A stretch of DNA of 64,000 bases from Acidobacteriota bacterium (lineage in GTDB: Bacteria; Acidobacteriota; Terriglobia; Terriglobales; Acidobacteriaceae), in the NCBI GenBank assembly GCA_013285705.1, contig JABDHA010000002.1, positions 30,146-94,145 of the forward strand, written 5' to 3'. The notes below the pieces were generated by a model that saw only the letters and a list, made by a program, of their open reading frames with translations, was not told the origin of the DNA and did no database searches. The first letter of the stretch is position 1, and each line of letters starts with the position of its first letter. A program made the position numbers and the translations under genes. Shown in pieces: positions 11,980 through 21,027 of the stretch.

Positions 11980-12071
11980 GGAGAGGTGGCAGAGCCCGGT
12001 TGAATGCACCTGACTCGAAATCAGGCATGGGGGTAACTCCATCGGGGGTTCGAATCCCTCCCTCTCCGCCA
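11980..12071 (+). tRNA. tRNA-Ser (anticodon CGA), CCA encoded
   Basis: GGAGAGG acceptor pairs CCTCTCC; CCTGA-CTCGAAA-TCAGG anticodon arm; long variable arm; GGGGG-TTCGAAT-CCCTC T arm; terminal GCCA. Confidence 0.95.
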
Positions 12072-12072
12072 G
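12052..12072 (+). repeat. attL core (3' end of tRNA-Ser)
   Basis: GAATCCCTCCCTCTCCGCCAG, identical to 21007-21027. Confidence 0.93.
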
Positions 12073-12086
12073 AATCTGGCTACCCT

Positions 12087-12102
12087 TTAAAGTGTTGATT
12101 CC
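12087..12102 (+). repeat. arm-type site, inverted partner of 20966-20981
   Basis: TTAAAGTGTTGATTCC is the reverse complement of GGAATCAACACTTTAA at 20966. Confidence 0.8.
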
Positions 12103-12166: not shown

Positions 12167-13309
12167 ATGGAAAACCCCAGTGTCTACAAGCGGTTCATAG
12201 AGCAAACGGTCAAACCGTCTAAGCGCCCGAAGCTGTTTTGGTACTGTCGCACTCCTGAGGGTTGGCGCTATCTCACCGATACCACTGAGAACCGTAAACA
12301 CATCCAGGGCAGACATGTAATCCGGGAGAACATCTCCGTCGACGGTAAAAGCAAACGAATCTATACGCCTCTCAAAGAGAACGAGACGCCCCAGCAAGCG
12401 TTACAGAATGCGATGCTACGCGCCGTCAGCGCTGCTCGAAAGAGAGTACCCACAAAGACACATGACGGGCTTAAAAAGGCAATGAACGATTACATCGCAG
12501 ACCGTGAAGCTCATGGCAAGTTAGAGGCAGCGGAACACGCGAGGCATACGCTACCGGAGTTTCGGTCTATCTGCCCTCAGGTGTCGACGGTCACCGGGGT
12601 GACTCGCCAACATCTCACCGCATTTTGTGCAGCGCTACGAAAGCGGGGGCAGAGTCCTCGAACCGTGAGCAACAAGTATGACCGCATTCGCTCATTCCTG
12701 AAGTTTGCCGGGAGCGATGTCCAGCTATCGAAAAGTGATCGCCCAAAGTTTGATAAGACGTTGCCGACAACGTACACGAAAGCGGAGACGGACGCGCTAC
12801 TCGCACACGCTACCGATTACATGAAGGTCGTCATCTGCCTCGGATTGCAATTAGGTCTTCGGGATCAAGAGATGATGCACGCGGAATGGGACGATATCGA
12901 CAGAGAGCACAGAACGTTTCGAGTCAAGAGTAAGCCTGTTTATGATTTCGGAGTAAAAGATGCAGAAGAAAGGGATATCCCGATACCGGCATCCCTGTTC
13001 ACAATGCTCAATAAGTGGCGTGAGAGTCGCCCTGGCACATCGCTGATACTTGGAGTGGGTGAAGAGTTCCAGAACACGAACGGGCATCTCCTGAGGACGC
13101 TACAGCGTATGGCGAAGCGTTGCAATGTCGAGAACGCCACTCTGCACAAACTGCGCCGAACATATCTCACTCGCTTATTGCAGTCGGGAACAGACATCCG
13201 AACCGTTCAAGCGTTCGCCGGTCACGCTGACTTGGAATCAAGTATGCGTTATCTGAGACCGGCAGGAGCCAAAGAGATGCTGTCTCACGTCGACGCTATT
13301 GATTGGTAA
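12167..13309 (+). CDS. tyrosine recombinase / integrase
   Basis: 380 aa; R (LGLRDQEMMHAEW), HxxR (LHKLRRTYLTRLLQSG), H...Y (FAGHADLESSMRYLRP) catalytic pattern. Confidence 0.94.
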   Translation: MENPSVYKRFIEQTVKPSKRPKLFWYCRTPEGWRYLTDTTENRKHIQGRHVIRENISVDGKSKRIYTPLKENETPQQALQNAMLRAVSAARKRVPTKTHDGLKKAMNDYIADREAHGKLEAAEHARHTLPEFRSICPQVSTVTGVTRQHLTAFCAALRKRGQSPRTVSNKYDRIRSFLKFAGSDVQLSKSDRPKFDKTLPTTYTKAETDALLAHATDYMKVVICLGLQLGLRDQEMMHAEWDDIDREHRTFRVKSKPVYDFGVKDAEERDIPIPASLFTMLNKWRESRPGTSLILGVGEEFQNTNGHLLRTLQRMAKRCNVENATLHKLRRTYLTRLLQSGTDIRTVQAFAGHADLESSMRYLRPAGAKEMLSHVDAIDW

Positions 13310-13353: not shown

Positions 13354-14761
13354 TTATCTTCTGTGACTCGGAGGAAGTCGACTGTTTTGATCTGCTTTAG
13401 CCTTTATCGCGTCCATGACAGAGCGCTGATGCGTTGCCTGTAGACCCTTAATTACCGCTGCCTTCGTCAACTCGGGGTTCGTCGAGTGGCGTGCGTCGAT
13501 TGAGTAATTGTGTGTTGTTCCACCGAAACCCGATTTCGAGTTTGGAATGATCGTCCCTGCTTTTTTCGGGACGAATAATTCAGGCAATAATGTTGCGATA
13601 TAACCGTGTCCGTTATATCTCTCACCGTTGCCGATGAGTTCAGGTCATCTCTTCACCCTGTTAGGGTGTCTTCCATTTCGCGAACACTGTTCGCTACGTG
13701 CCGAAGCACTGACCGTCACACGTTCCCTTTCGGGCTTCGCTCGGTATTGTCTCCATGTGGAGAGGTTCACCGAATTAGAAAGATTATCGAATAGCATTGC
13801 TGCTACAAGGGGCCATTGAATTAACCCTGTTCACCTACAATCGACATTTGATTTACGGGCGGTTCCCCTCCGTCCGCGAACCCTAAACCAGAAAACAATG
13901 CAGCGCCTGCGGCCTTACCTAGCAGCCCGCTTAGACCACCAGTAAGCTTGCCAATGTGCCGCGCACAGCACCGCCTATATCGGACATACTGAAGCCACCA
14001 AGGCCACCTTTACCGGAACCACCTAATCCGCTTAAACCGGGGATGCCACCGACAATCTTTACCGGCATCGGCTGCTTCCCAAGTCCGAACGCACCCAGTA
14101 ACCCGCCCTCTGCCTTCTGTAAGCCTGCTTTCCCTATCGTTCGCAAACCATTAGCGGCAGCGTTCTTGATGTTCTTTCCAAACTGTCCGCGCTTGCTGTC
14201 GAGTAGAGCGTCGTTGAAGTCTTCAATGAATTTACCGAAGGTCTGCGTCAACACTTGAGGCATATTCACCGTAAGCATCTGTTGTAGCTGTGCGAGTGAA
14301 GTTGTCGAGCTAATGCTCTGGTTATCGCTCTGTACCTGCACCTGTCGGTTTGCCTGGACGGTAGCAATCTGCCTGCCCACGCGCTGCGATTCCGCAACAT
14401 CTCCTACACCATCGGCAGCACGTTGCTGCTGCTGAAGGTCAGAGAGGGCTTGGGTATAAACTTTTGTATTCAAAGTGGCCAAAGAGATTGCGGCAGCATG
14501 GGCCGATACCGCCCCAGTAGAGAGCTGAAACGATATCGATTGCTCTGCTAGGCTGTCCGCACCGTGCCGTTGAATGTCTGCGAGGTCGTCCTGGTATTTA
14601 GTTAGTTCATCGGATAGCATGATTTCGCCGGATGCGGAACCATGTCCACCACCAACTAAGTAATTCCACGCTGCCACTGAATTGAGTGGAATGGACGGTC
14701 GGTCTAGCATGTTGCGTTGTTCTGTTTTGCGTCCACTAAAGGCGCGAGTTAAAAAACTCAT
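13354..14761 (-). pseudogene. truncated phage morphogenesis gene: HK97-portal-like N-terminus joined to tape-measure C-terminus, split by a -1 frame change and a group I intron
   Basis: ORF 13931-14761 starts MSFLTRAF...RPSIPLNSVAAWNYLVGGGHGSASGE (portal-like) and continues as tape-measure-like sequence; a -1 frame continues TGGLSGLLGKAAGAALFSGLGFADGGEPPVNQMSIVGEQG, then intron, then PELFVPKKAGTIIPN...NYSIDARHS. Confidence 0.75.
13585..13823 (-). ncRNA. group I intron (compact, IA-like with P7.1/P7.2), no ORF
   Basis: 5' exon ends ...CAGGGU, intron begins U and ends G; manual fold gives P1 GGGUUA/UGGCCC with U.G at splice site, P2 UAGCA-GCAA-UGCUA, P3 UCUUUC/GGAAGA, P4 UUCGGU/ACCGAG, P5 CUCC/GGAG, P6 CCC-GAAA-GGG, P7 GGUCA/UGACC, P7.1 GUGC-UUCG-GCAC, P7.2 GCGAAC/GUUCGC, P8 CACCC/GGGUG, P9 CUCAUCG-GCAA-CGGUGAG, P9.1 GAUAUAAC/GUUAUAUC; removal joins GEQG to PELFVP in frame. 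Confidence 0.9.
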
Positions 14762-14764
14762 CGT

Positions 14765-15424
14765 TTATGCGGTTCCTTTGTCTGGGTAGGCGAGTGCTCG
14801 CCATTGCTGCCATAGTTCGTTGGCCAATACTTCGTTGCCTTCGGCTTGCGCTTGTCGCTGCCTCTTGTAGAGGTCTTGCATTCGCTGTGTGCGGTCCTGA
14901 TAGGCGATGACGTAAGCACGTCGTTCTTCTATCTCTGCCCTGAATGGTGCTTGCTCGGATTCGGTGAACCTGCTCATCATGTCGTCAAGGTCACGCTCAC
15001 TCAGAGACATATCGAGACAGAACTGGATATCAGCCTGGAGTTGCTTGTCGACAACCGGTTGTAATTCTTTGGGCAGCGATTCAGGGGCCGAAGGACGCTT
15101 CTTCTCTTTCTTGTCGATTGCTGCAAGCGTCCGCTGAAGTAACGCCAAGTCGGCGCGTGTCGCTTCTGTTTTGGGATTCCGCATCTTGGCGGTAAGCGTG
15201 GCAGCGAGTTCGACATCTAACCGGTCAGCGGCAGTGAGCCACGGTCGCGTACTCGATATTTCTGCCCATGCAGTCTTCGCACCCTGGGGAAGTCTCACCG
15301 GTGGATCGCCAAGGGGATCGCTGGGCGCACTTTGTGCGGTCAACCGCTCCTTGTAGCGCTTCGGATTCTGTTTCAGCGTCCCTGAGAGGGACAATTCGTC
15401 TAAACTCTTGCGTTTTCGTCCCAT
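14765..15424 (-). CDS. phage terminase small subunit, P27-like
   Basis: 219 aa; LSGTLKQNPKRYKER...DPPVRLPQGAKTAWAEISSTRPWLTAADRLDVELAATLTAKM matches the N-terminal pattern of P27-family TerS. Confidence 0.7.
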   Translation of the reverse strand: MGRKRKSLDELSLSGTLKQNPKRYKERLTAQSAPSDPLGDPPVRLPQGAKTAWAEISSTRPWLTAADRLDVELAATLTAKMRNPKTEATRADLALLQRTLAAIDKKEKKRPSAPESLPKELQPVVDKQLQADIQFCLDMSLSERDLDDMMSRFTESEQAPFRAEIEERRAYVIAYQDRTQRMQDLYKRQRQAQAEGNEVLANELWQQWRALAYPDKGTA

Positions 15425-15862: not shown

Positions 15863-16195
15863 TTATCGCTGCCGGGAATCCTTTGTCAAAGTTTGAAACT
15901 TCAATGTGTAAGTGTGTCGTGCGATCTTACCGCGTGCACTTGCTTTAGATTTCTTGCCACGCGAGTACGGCATTGGTAGAACGGGGAAAATGAATCCTTT
16001 GTCTGTTAGCTCCTGGCGTGCTCGCTGAAGGAAATCAACATTGATTCCGGCATCGCGTGCGAGCTTCGTATTCGTCCAAGAGTGTGACAACATACCTTGC
16101 CGGGTATCGGGTGGCACTTTTGCGTTAACCTTGCGTATCACCTTGCGTTCAAGATGTTTTAGCAGTCTCGCTGCCTCAAGTGATAAAGGCTTCAT
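15863..16195 (-). CDS. hypothetical protein, winged-HTH-like
   Basis: 110 aa; WTNTKLARDAGINVDFLQRARQELTDKGFI resembles a wHTH recognition region. Confidence 0.5.
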   Translation of the reverse strand: MKPLSLEAARLLKHLERKVIRKVNAKVPPDTRQGMLSHSWTNTKLARDAGINVDFLQRARQELTDKGFIFPVLPMPYSRGKKSKASARGKIARHTYTLKFQTLTKDSRQR

Positions 16196-16590
16196 CGGAT
16201 GCCTGCCGCGATACTCATCGGATGGAAGTCACGTCCGCGTTTACGACGGACAGATAGCAATACCTGAGTGAACCTGAACAGGGAATCGTCAAGCGCTGTC
16301 ATAAGCACTTGGCACATGTTGTTGGGAATCGTGCCGGGAACATACCCTGTAAGCAATTCCGGGTATTCGTCTTGTAGTTCCTCAATCAATATCGCTGCGA
16401 TGGCTTGTGATCGCCATAGACGGTCGTAATGGTGCTCGGCTACTTCCTGTCCATTCCTTATGCGTTCGGTATCTGCCACGAAGGTATTAAGCACTTCTGT
16501 GTAACAGGCCGCGTTTTCGTCGAACTCCAGAGTTTTTACCCACTTCAGCACATCTAAGGCGAGCAGGCGTTGACTTTCAATTGTTCTCAT
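16192..16590 (-). CDS. hypothetical island protein
   Basis: 132 aa ORF overlapping the next gene by 4 bp, operon-like. Confidence 0.55.
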   Translation of the reverse strand: MRTIESQRLLALDVLKWVKTLEFDENAACYTEVLNTFVADTERIRNGQEVAEHHYDRLWRSQAIAAILIEELQDEYPELLTGYVPGTIPNNMCQVLMTALDDSLFRFTQVLLSVRRKRGRDFHPMSIAAGIR

Positions 16591-16620: not shown

Positions 16621-16836
16621 TTATGCTTGTGCTGGCTTGTCGTATATAAATGCACGCATCGCTTGGCAACTTAGGCTGAACTCTTTGGCGAGTTCGGCAA
16701 TCTGCCACTGTTCAGCTTCACTGAGCAGGTGCGCGTTCTCTCGGACGACCGCAAAGAATGTGGTCCAATTTGTGGTATCGGTGACGATGTCAATCAAAGT
16801 CTGTCGTAGTTCTTCGAGTTCGATGTCGTTTGTCAT
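16621..16836 (-). CDS. hypothetical island protein (71 aa)
   Basis: ATG at 16836 preceded by GGTGAGGGAGA SD lying in the 71-bp repeat. Confidence 0.55.
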   Translation of the reverse strand: MTNDIELEELRQTLIDIVTDTTNWTTFFAVVRENAHLLSEAEQWQIAELAKEFSLSCQAMRAFIYDKPAQA

Positions 16837-16840
16837 TATG

Positions 16841-16911
16841 TCTCCCTCACCTATATAGGAAAAAACGGGGGGTAAATGTCTCAAGAAGGTCAATCTTTTT
16901 TCAACTATTTT
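16841..16911 (-). repeat. 71-bp promoter-like repeat, copy 1
   Basis: Identical to 17732-17802; ends in an SD-like sequence just before the ATG at 16836. Confidence 0.92.
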
Positions 16912-17731
16912 TTATCTGCCCTGTATCACCGCACAAAGTGCGTTCGATAGGGGTCGCGCCAAGGGGATCGGCCAAAGGGTCGGAGATTGTAGTCGCTGTG
17001 GTCGATGTGTACTTTTGACTGAGGATTCCCGGTTGGGTGTTTCCTCGCGCGCGGGTACGCGTAGATTACGTAATAGGACACTCGAAAACCTTACGGTTTT
17101 CTCGGTCTTTTAGTAATCGTACTTAGAGAACTAAAGAAATAAATATCTAGGCAGAAAACGTACTTAGAACACGTTTTAAGTTCAGCGTCTGAGGTAATCT
17201 CAGCCTTATTAGGGCCAAAAAAGCATCAACACCGTCCAAGTACGCAATCCCCGTTATCTCTAACGAAAATAAACCATCTATCTACCGCTTTTGTTAGTTA
17301 CGGTAGATAAGGCTTCTTGGTGGTGTTGGCTTACGGTCCTGCATGGTTTGATGGGTTGTTAGTCCACCAGCGCGTTCTCAGGTTCCGTGCGCTGTAAATC
17401 CGGAACCTAACCATGTCAGCCGCTCAGTGCGTGTATCCCTTTTATCGCAGCCAATCTGCTGCCCTCATAATCACGTACGGATACAGGGACCTATGCCCTC
17501 TGAGGTACGGTTTTATTTTCGACGGTTTGCTCCGTCAAGGGCCGCTTGCCTCTCATCGACTAAACGACTCCACGGGGATACCTGGGTCTAAGATACGGTC
17601 GTGATCTGCAACAGTCCTGCATTCGTCCTCAATGACACGTCAGGGATCAACTTTCGATATGCACGCGGGACGATGATGCCGCCCGGCTTTGACTCCGGGA
17701 CTTTTGGTGTGGTGAGAGAGTTCTAATATCT
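16912..17731. other. ~820-bp non-coding interval rich in inverted repeats; candidate structured RNA or origin/packaging region
   Basis: No minus-strand ORF in the track; perfect inverted repeats at 17279-17309, 17380-17408, 17342-17415 and 17521-17536. Confidence 0.45.
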
Positions 17732-17802
17732 TCTCCCTCACCTATATAGGAAAAAACGGGGGGTAAATGTCTCAAGAAGGTCAATCTTTTTTCAACTATT
17801 TT
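17732..17802 (-). repeat. 71-bp promoter-like repeat, copy 2
   Basis: TCTCCCTCACCTATATAGGAAAAAACGGGGGGTAAATGTCTCAAGAAGGTCAATCTTTTTTCAACTATTTT identical to 16841-16911. Confidence 0.92.
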
Positions 17803-18829: not shown

Positions 18830-19320
18830 GTCATGGTCTCCTTTAAATTGAATTGCGCCCATTCAAGAGCTTGTGTTTGGTTCGGTTTCATACTGCGTGA
18901 TCGTCAAGCGGGCAATAAAAAAGCCCACCTATAAGGTGAGCGCGTGTCGTCATGGATAGAGGCCATCCGTTCTCGGTATATCAGGCGCTCACGTTTTCAT
19001 CGGTACATCCTTTTTGGGGGTCATCTGGTTTGGAGACCAGAGACACCTGTGACTACTATTCCTAGAATATCAAACGGGCAACCCGAAGTCAAGACTTATC
19101 CTCGGATGCACCATTTCTAGGGCACAAACCGAGTCATCGCCACGTTGCCCTGTAGCGCGTCCGTTTTCGCTTACTGTGGGATTGCCTGTCCGAGAGGCTA
19201 CAAGTCGAACCTGGGCCGGTCAGCGCCTTACCGTGAGCGATGCCAATATCGGTATCTGACCATAGCTGGCCATTTTCCAAAATTAGGCTCTCAAGGGAAC
19301 TTGGCTTTGGAATTATATAC

Positions 19321-19400
19321 TCTCCTACTAATATATACGGAAATATCAGGGGTAAAACCTTCGAATAAATCAACTATTTTCACTTTTTTTCAACTATTTT
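19321..19400 (-). repeat. diverged third copy of the 71-bp element
   Basis: TCTCCTACTAATATATACGGAAATATCAGGGGTAAAACC...TCAACTATTTT; TCAACTATTTT occurs twice at 19370 and 19390. Confidence 0.7.
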
Positions 19401-19707
19401 CGAGGGGTCAAACCATTCAATGCGGAAAAGCTACCATTCAATGAAAAACTGTCCGAATGTGGACAAAATTGTGCAATATTACTCGTTGCAACAAATGCCC
19501 ATAAAATGGTGCAATCGTGTATTTATTACACGTATTAGTCGTTGCAACAGTTAAGCATAGCTAACCCCAAACATGTAAACCCTCTGGAATCAGTGGGACT
19601 CCTAAGTTGCTTAGGTATACGATGGCAGGGCGATAATAGGGCGCGAAGGTGGGTTTCGTCGAGAGGTCTGACCAGTTGAGCGCACTTTGTGCGCGGCTCG
19701 GAGCGTT

Positions 19708-20325: not shown

Positions 20326-20657
20326 CGTTTTAAAATCCCTTCGTGAATAACTTAGCGCATTCTCACTGGCACCAACGAAAGTAGGTGTAAAGATGCGGAA
20401 CACACAAACTAAAACGGCACCTGGAAACGTTCACCAGATGCCGTGATCTTGTCGGGGTCACCAAATTTCCGAGCGACCCCCGTAGGCGCTTGCCAGAGCG
20501 ACATTGAATTGTGACGCGGGATCGGGGATCGTTACAGATAATCTTTCTGCCCAGAGTCTCTAAAAAAGACTTGACACAAAAAATAAATGTGACATATAAT
20601 GCGCCGCTCATGTTATCGTGATTTCACATCCCAACTAGGGATCGAGGAAAACGAATA

Positions 20658-20888
20658 ATGGAAACTACTATCGTGAAATGCTGCGAATGCGACGAAACCG
20701 GCACCAAAAACGATCTCACACCGTGCCACCAATGTGGCCGATACATGTGCATTCGGCACTGCTGCAAGTGCGATGTCACGATCTCTTCAGCCGAGGAGTG
20801 GAAAGAGTCTTTCGTCAACCCCGTACCCACAGACGCCACGTTTCCGATGGTGCTGTCTTTCGATGCCCTGGGTGAGTTGCTCGGTTGA
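20658..20888 (+). CDS. small Cys-rich putative zinc-binding protein
   Basis: 76 aa; CCEC-x11-CHQC-x5-CIRHCCKC pattern, GAGG SD upstream. Confidence 0.55.
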   Translation: METTIVKCCECDETGTKNDLTPCHQCGRYMCIRHCCKCDVTISSAEEWKESFVNPVPTDATFPMVLSFDALGELLG

Positions 20889-20965: not shown

Positions 20966-20981
20966 GGAATCAACACTTTAA
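20966..20981 (-). repeat. arm-type site, inverted partner of 12087-12102
   Basis: GGAATCAACACTTTAA. Confidence 0.8.
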
Positions 20982-21006: not shown

Positions 21007-21027
21007 GAATCCCTCCCTCTCCGCCAG
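21007..21027 (+). repeat. attR core
   Basis: GAATCCCTCCCTCTCCGCCAG identical to tRNA-Ser 3' end. Confidence 0.93.

Follow-up and report, generated by a model that had tools for sequence, protein, structure and literature searches.

Among the described systems closest to this locus are the PICIs, whose traits we have taken from PMC6092414, together with the capsid-forming PICIs (cf-PICIs) of PMC10690885. The PICIs in these papers are run by repressors (Stl, Rpr) or by AlpA-type activators. Each PLE satellite of Vibrio cholerae makes a noncoding RNA as its most abundant transcript (PMC7567579), and GOLLD and ROOL are long structured RNAs of phage-related elements (PMC7567579, PMC12286853). The term combinations tried brought up no paper that links phage satellites to sigma factors or to Acidobacteria.

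We have studied a 71-bp direct repeat within a window of 64 kb, which is the whole stretch of DNA analyzed. The initial annotation had read the repeat as a reusable promoter/RBS cassette present in three copies next to a sigma factor. Based on the data below, we give a probability of roughly two in three to the repeat being, as a whole, an island-private promoter plus 5'-leader cassette, the transcription starts being those that we infer from the boxes.

The cassette sits in an 8.96-kb (8,955 bp) island integrated at tRNA-Ser, with exact 21-bp att repeats and an integrase gene next to attL (Table 1). The virion-gene set is incomplete, with no full virion/lysis set. Among the ORFs of the island that were searched, only TerS and a short tape-measure-like gene were recognised, and neither a capsid nor a portal nor a large-terminase gene. 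Hence, the island resembles a phage satellite. TerS has weak relatives (28-43% identical) in 20 of 299 other family genomes. No regulator of the PICI types (Stl/Rpr or AlpA/MerR) was found, the one recognised being sigma-factor-like, and we have therefore classed the island as satellite-like only, not as a PICI. A search for a candidate helper gave no phrog_10 (major head protein) match in the 59%-complete own genome. At the empty-site locus of three same-genus genomes, the tRNA matched and the flanks did not. Near both island ends (12087-12102 and 20966-20981) lies an exact 16-bp inverted repeat, TTAAAGTGTTGATTCC, which could perhaps provide integrase arm sites.

The putative tape-measure gene is split by a group I intron, which falls exactly within a conserved tape-measure motif, between GEQG and PELFVP, and exon 2 would span 13354-13584 if the exons are joined as the reading frames suggest. 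The frame shifts near 13940 and then continues to the intron; this may reflect a programmed shift, a mutation or an assembly error. The probable identity of the gene rests on the split motif and a C-terminus shared, at 37% identity, with the tape measure (1012 aa) of a related island (L040, see below).

Table 1. Features of the island and of the repeat copies (window coordinates)
Feature	Position	Strand	Remarks
attL	12052-12072	+	3' end of tRNA-Ser(CGA), gene 11980-12071
Tyrosine integrase	12167-13309	+	Pfam Phage_integrase 6.7e-21; phrog_1 1.9e-33
Group I intron	13585-13823	-	RF00028, 56.4 bits (gathering 50); model match 13621-13832
Short tape-measure-like gene, N-terminal part	13931-14761	-	whole gene 13354-14761
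Terminase small subunit-like (TerS)	14765-15424	-	phrog_83, E 3.8e-6
o110, weakly winged-helix/replication-initiation-like	15863-16195	-	overlaps o132; HTH_36 E 0.005 (below cut-off); phrog_19658 E 0.03
o132, function not assigned	16192-16590	-	
o71, 71-aa ORF, function not assigned	16621-16836	-	first gene behind copy 1
Copy 1	16841-16911	-	AAAATAGTTGA 16901-16911; TTTACC 16871-16876; TATATA 16852-16857; SD-like GGTGAGGGAGA 16841-16851
Predicted structured noncoding RNA, ~520 nt	17217-17740	-	ORF-free; folding z -3.40; long stem, then T6 at 17217-17222
Predicted 10-bp hairpin pairing the SD-like run of copy 2	17711-17742	-	arms 17733-17742 and 17711-17720; -14.6 kcal/mol
Copy 2	17732-17802	-	AAAATAGTTGA 17792-17802; TTTACC 17762-17767; TATATA 17743-17748; GGTGAGGGAGA 17732-17742; no ORF behind
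ECF-type sigma-factor-like protein, 343 aa	17831-18862	-	regions 2 and 4; between copies 2 and 3
Terminator-like hairpin with T6	18923-18941	-	between the promoter-like site and the sigma gene
Sigma70-type promoter-like site	19064-19092	-	TTGACT-17-TATTCT, ahead of the sigma gene
Diverged copy 3	19321-19400	-	AAAATAGTTGA 19370-19380 and 19390-19400; TTTACC 19351-19356; TATATA 19332-19337; then AGTAGGAGAG
attR	21007-21027	+	exact 21-bp copy of the tRNA-Ser 3' end

Copies 1 and 2 are identical over 71 of 71 bases, lie in direct orientation 891 bp apart and both face the minus strand, exactly as first annotated. They form the sole long repeat of the window, far above the chance expectation, and in the whole 4.47-Mb genome the 71-mer occurs at these two sites only (E 8.7e-42 and 3.0e-31). 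The match runs through the 71 bases unchanged and three more with one change, and then the similarity stops; when more mismatches are allowed, the block grows to 85 bases at 93%. Both copies contain AAAATAGTTGA, TTTACCCC and TATATA on the minus strand.

The third copy proposed by the initial annotation shares its boxes, their order and the strand with copies 1 and 2, and it is a relative of the repeat rather than a full copy. Its gap-free alignment to the 71-mer extends over 16 nt only. The local score of 32 was reached by none of 1,000 shuffles, and the other scored island stretches did not exceed 21. Copy 3 carries AAAATAGTTGA twice, 20 bp apart, and AGTAGGAGAG in place of the GGTGAGGGAGA that had been ascribed to every copy. 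The edges of the identical block coincide with AAAATAGTTGA and the SD-like run, and these are module edges present in copy 3 too. Two further motifs were observed around the copies. A palindrome, GCACAAAGTGC, occurs three times in the island (15326-15340, 16928-16942 and 19678-19693), once just upstream of copy 1, and a TATTA[CG]TCGTTGCAACA repeat (19477-19493 and 19533-19549) is found where the sequence upstream of copy 3 is A+T-rich, and may mark an origin or operator.

The copies differ in what follows them. Copy 1 runs through GGTGAGGGAGA-CATA straight into the ATG of o71 (16836-16834), with the SD and the start codon well placed, and the best reading of the gene order is that it opens a putative o71-o132-o110 operon. 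o71 itself had no PHROG match. Copy 2 has the SD-like run and no start codon downstream, again as first described, and copy 3 likewise lacks one and opens no ORF. Thus, the promoter half of the promoter/RBS label agrees with the box order and spacing in the copies, and its RBS half fits only copy 1 with its SD and ATG.

On the minus strand, all three copies present AAAATAGTTGA, TTTACC, 13 bases, TATATA and a purine-rich run, in this order. A genome-wide motif search, one of the checks proposed with the initial annotation, has borne out the link to the island: the 4.47-Mb genome contains three matches to TTTACC-N13-TATATA, each of them on the minus strand of the island, and the reversed control gave 0 matches. 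As the composite pattern was derived from these same copies, its exclusivity is partly circular and indicates an island-private signal, not independent significance. AAAATAGTTGA alone occurs eight times in the genome, four of them in the 9-kb island, and the remaining cassette boxes are absent at the four sites outside. It lies 24 bp from TTTACC in copies 1 and 2, and 13 and 33 bp from it in copy 3. These steps of 11 and 9 bp are close to one helical turn, which suggests that a protein binds upstream, always on the same side of the helix.

TTTACC-N13-TATATA is, to our knowledge, no standard ECF promoter, and it is also at odds with sigma70 spacing; both points count against the cassette reading. 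The sigma70 scan reported no hexamer pair of that type (TTGACA-like and TATAAT-like, 16-18 bp apart) at the three copies. Sites with 9-of-12 matches were seen upstream of the sigma gene and of TerS, in a scan that found 7 sites against 7.9 expected, which leaves the 12-of-12 site at 20571 as the one of note. There (20571-20888, plus strand), a perfect TTGACA-18-TATAAT promoter precedes the gene of a 76-aa cysteine-rich protein. The repeat is real and unusual in detail and, as a shared promoter, ordinary in kind.

We have then considered the region behind copy 2, in which ~520 nt contain no minus-strand ORF of at least 60 aa. This stretch folds at -178.2 kcal/mol, compared with -156.2 (sd 6.5) for shuffled sequences (z -3.40), and none of 100 shuffles was as stable. 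The strongest local folding signal of the region lies at 17180-17379 (z -4.9), and the opposite strand of the 520-nt region is itself somewhat more stable than its shuffles (z -2.06), a point against our reading. At its start, the SD-like run of copy 2 can pair with CTCTCTCACC 12 nt further on, which would sequester the run; 145 of 2,000 shuffled downstream sequences fold equally well, so that this hairpin alone is not significant. The Rfam search of the 520-nt region returned no family and no match at any meaningful score, the GOLLD and ROOL models included. Complementarity to island gene leaders, which would point to antisense action, showed no excess over shuffles, and no long inverted repeats flanking the predicted RNA were found. 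Judging from the folding, the terminal stem plus T6 and the lack of ORFs, we lean slightly toward copy 2 opening a putative noncoding RNA rather than a gene. Such an RNA would account for the missing ATG, and the SD-like run would here be better read as its 5' end than as an RBS.

The sigma factor that had been noted as adjacent is of the ECF type according to Pfam, PHROG and PDB profile matches. Sigma70_r4_2 scored 26.0 bits (cut-off 25.7) and Sigma70_r2 20.7, just below its cut-off of 24; phrog_1740 matched at 1e-7, and SigH/SigE from the PDB matched by profile across both regions (E 5e-8 to 4e-7). Regions 2 and 4 are the only sigma-70 regions of the protein, as defines the ECF type. Its structure model is of low confidence (pLDDT 55). 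Copy 3 faces the sigma gene, with the terminator-like hairpin in between. With this strong hairpin, the leader of the gene (18923-19064, minus strand) may act as an attenuator or be a small RNA of its own. Control of the cassette by the island sigma factor is plausible, with the odds somewhat against it.

The scheme that we propose would be the following. Host RNA polymerase would make the ECF-type sigma factor, and this protein or another island regulator would then turn on all three cassettes together. AAAATAGTTGA would be the regulator site and TTTACC-N13-TATATA the core promoter, with transcription starting a few bases past TATATA, at a point within the GGTGAGGGAGA run or immediately ahead of it. 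Copy 1 would drive the o71-o132-o110 operon and supply its SD. From copy 2, a structured noncoding RNA of ~520 nt would be made, the GGTGAGGGAGA run forming the 5' arm of the hairpin, and copy 3 would drive a leader RNA toward the sigma gene.

A simple recent duplication, already raised as an objection in the initial annotation, would have copied the promoter/RBS segment of o71, or inserted the 891-bp stretch beside it, and left copy 2 as a functionless remnant. It accounts for the perfect identity of copies 1 and 2 over 71 bp between diverged flanks, and it would agree with a copy 2 without ATG and with a cassette that is not conserved in relatives. It does not account for copy 3, which is far diverged and yet has the same boxes, order and core spacing, so that the module must be older than the duplication. 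The 520-nt structured, ORF-free region that follows copy 2 is also unexpected for a leftover, and we consider this explanation unlikely.

Less probable still is that the AAAATAGTTGA boxes are no part of a promoter and serve as iterons or operators of an island replication origin or repressor, with o110 as the binder. Four exact boxes in 9 kb would be compatible with this, as would the pair spaced by 20 bp, whose A+T-rich surroundings also contain TATTA[CG]TCGTTGCAACA at 19477 and 19533, and the weak winged-helix/replication-initiation match of o110. However, in every copy the boxes precede TTTACC-N13-TATATA in the same orientation, and an SD and an ATG follow copy 1, a context that iterons do not need. 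Near copy 3, the iteron and promoter readings are not mutually exclusive. Crossing-over between the 71-bp repeats would delete the 891-bp segment and fuse the upstream region of copy 2 to o71, as a one-way switch. The exact direct repeats 891 bp apart would permit it, and the product would keep one intact cassette, but the assembly holds no second arrangement, the repeat edges are promoter boxes and not a recombinase site, and copy 3 has diverged too far to participate; we regard such a switch as very improbable.

No relatives of the cassette, the RNA region or the island core were found in 60 relatives, 398 family genomes, IMG/VR, phages and plasmids, which counts against the cassette reading. 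A looser cassette pattern matched 11 viral contigs, about the chance level expected for the size of the collection. Two short matches, one in G366 (28 nt) and a terminator-like one in L041 (23 nt), were set aside as chance-like in their context. The TTTACC pattern gave no matches in the 60 relatives, which do not include the genomes G211 and G368 described next. Single-protein scans of viral and genome contigs with the sigma factor, TerS and the integrase gave no matches either.

Among the 398 family genomes, only the sigma proteins of G211 and G368 (E 1.4e-22) stood clear of background, the G211 score being so by construction since this protein is part of the profile; it had first been matched by tblastn (E 1.7e-9, 25% identity). 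A two-sequence sigma profile recovered the G211 island again and a weak match in a Bacteroidales MAG, which we rejected as it does not lie in a comparable island. By sequence overlap, the G211 locus (G211:C25, L040) is Granulicella paludicola NZ_JAGSYC010000018.1, of the family Acidobacteriaceae. Its island comprises an integrase, the sigma factor, a structured stretch, TerS, the 1012-aa tape measure, and tail and fibre genes; its ends were sought and not found. Directly behind the G. paludicola sigma gene, ~680 nt with no obvious genes (L040:12720-13400) fold with z -3.51 (20 shuffles). This is the same place as that of the RNA proposed here, and we have counted it in favour.

The G368 island (L079, G368:C7) is bounded by 27-bp repeats that correspond to a tRNA-Lys end. 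It comprises an integrase, the sigma factor, portal, protease and capsid, and the ORFs searched included no tail gene. The suggestion that the motif be sought in related islands had a negative outcome: by repeats and spacer reading, the cassette was found in neither the G211 nor the G368 island, and no long repeat was detected in either. Small ORFs common to the three sigma-bearing islands gave nothing significant. The three examples suggested a sigma-bearing satellite-like lineage with exchanged virion modules. More broadly, an Acidobacteriaceae satellite lineage might use its own ECF-type sigma factor as a master switch. Here, the factor would fire the cassette at three places, in front of an operon, of a structured large noncoding RNA and of a leader directed at the sigma gene itself; the related islands would combine such a sigma factor with virion modules that have been exchanged, either TerS plus tail or capsid-portal-protease. 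We put this wider scenario forward as speculative and rather unlikely.

What makes the locus of interest is mainly that copy 2 probably starts a large RNA and that the sigma factor is possibly a satellite switch. If true, the pairing of a private promoter with its own sigma factor would amount to a control scheme unlike that of the PICIs in the papers cited, and simple to test, the test object being the 71-bp fragment and one sigma gene. The data further point to a large noncoding RNA, undescribed so far, in an island of satellite type; the PLE IIR transcript, GOLLD and ROOL are RNAs of this sort.

Compared with PICIs, the island is alike in being small and tRNA-integrated, with att repeats, an integrase at one end, a regulator, TerS and an incomplete virion set. 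It differs in that the regulator is an ECF-type sigma factor and not Stl/Rpr or AlpA, in its tape-measure gene and in its Acidobacteriaceae host. The sigma factor shares regions 2 and 4 with SigH/SigE, and its gene stands beside its presumed targets as for other ECF factors, whereas the island protein has long extra N- and C-terminal parts. The likeness to the PLE IIR transcript lies in a structured, ORF-less interval behind a common cassette, known here from sequence; unlike in PLE, no long inverted repeats were found around the putative RNA, and leader complementarity is no better than in shuffles. With GOLLD and ROOL, which differ from the present RNA in that the latter has no Rfam match, the locus has in common a long, here predicted, structured RNA in a phage-related element.
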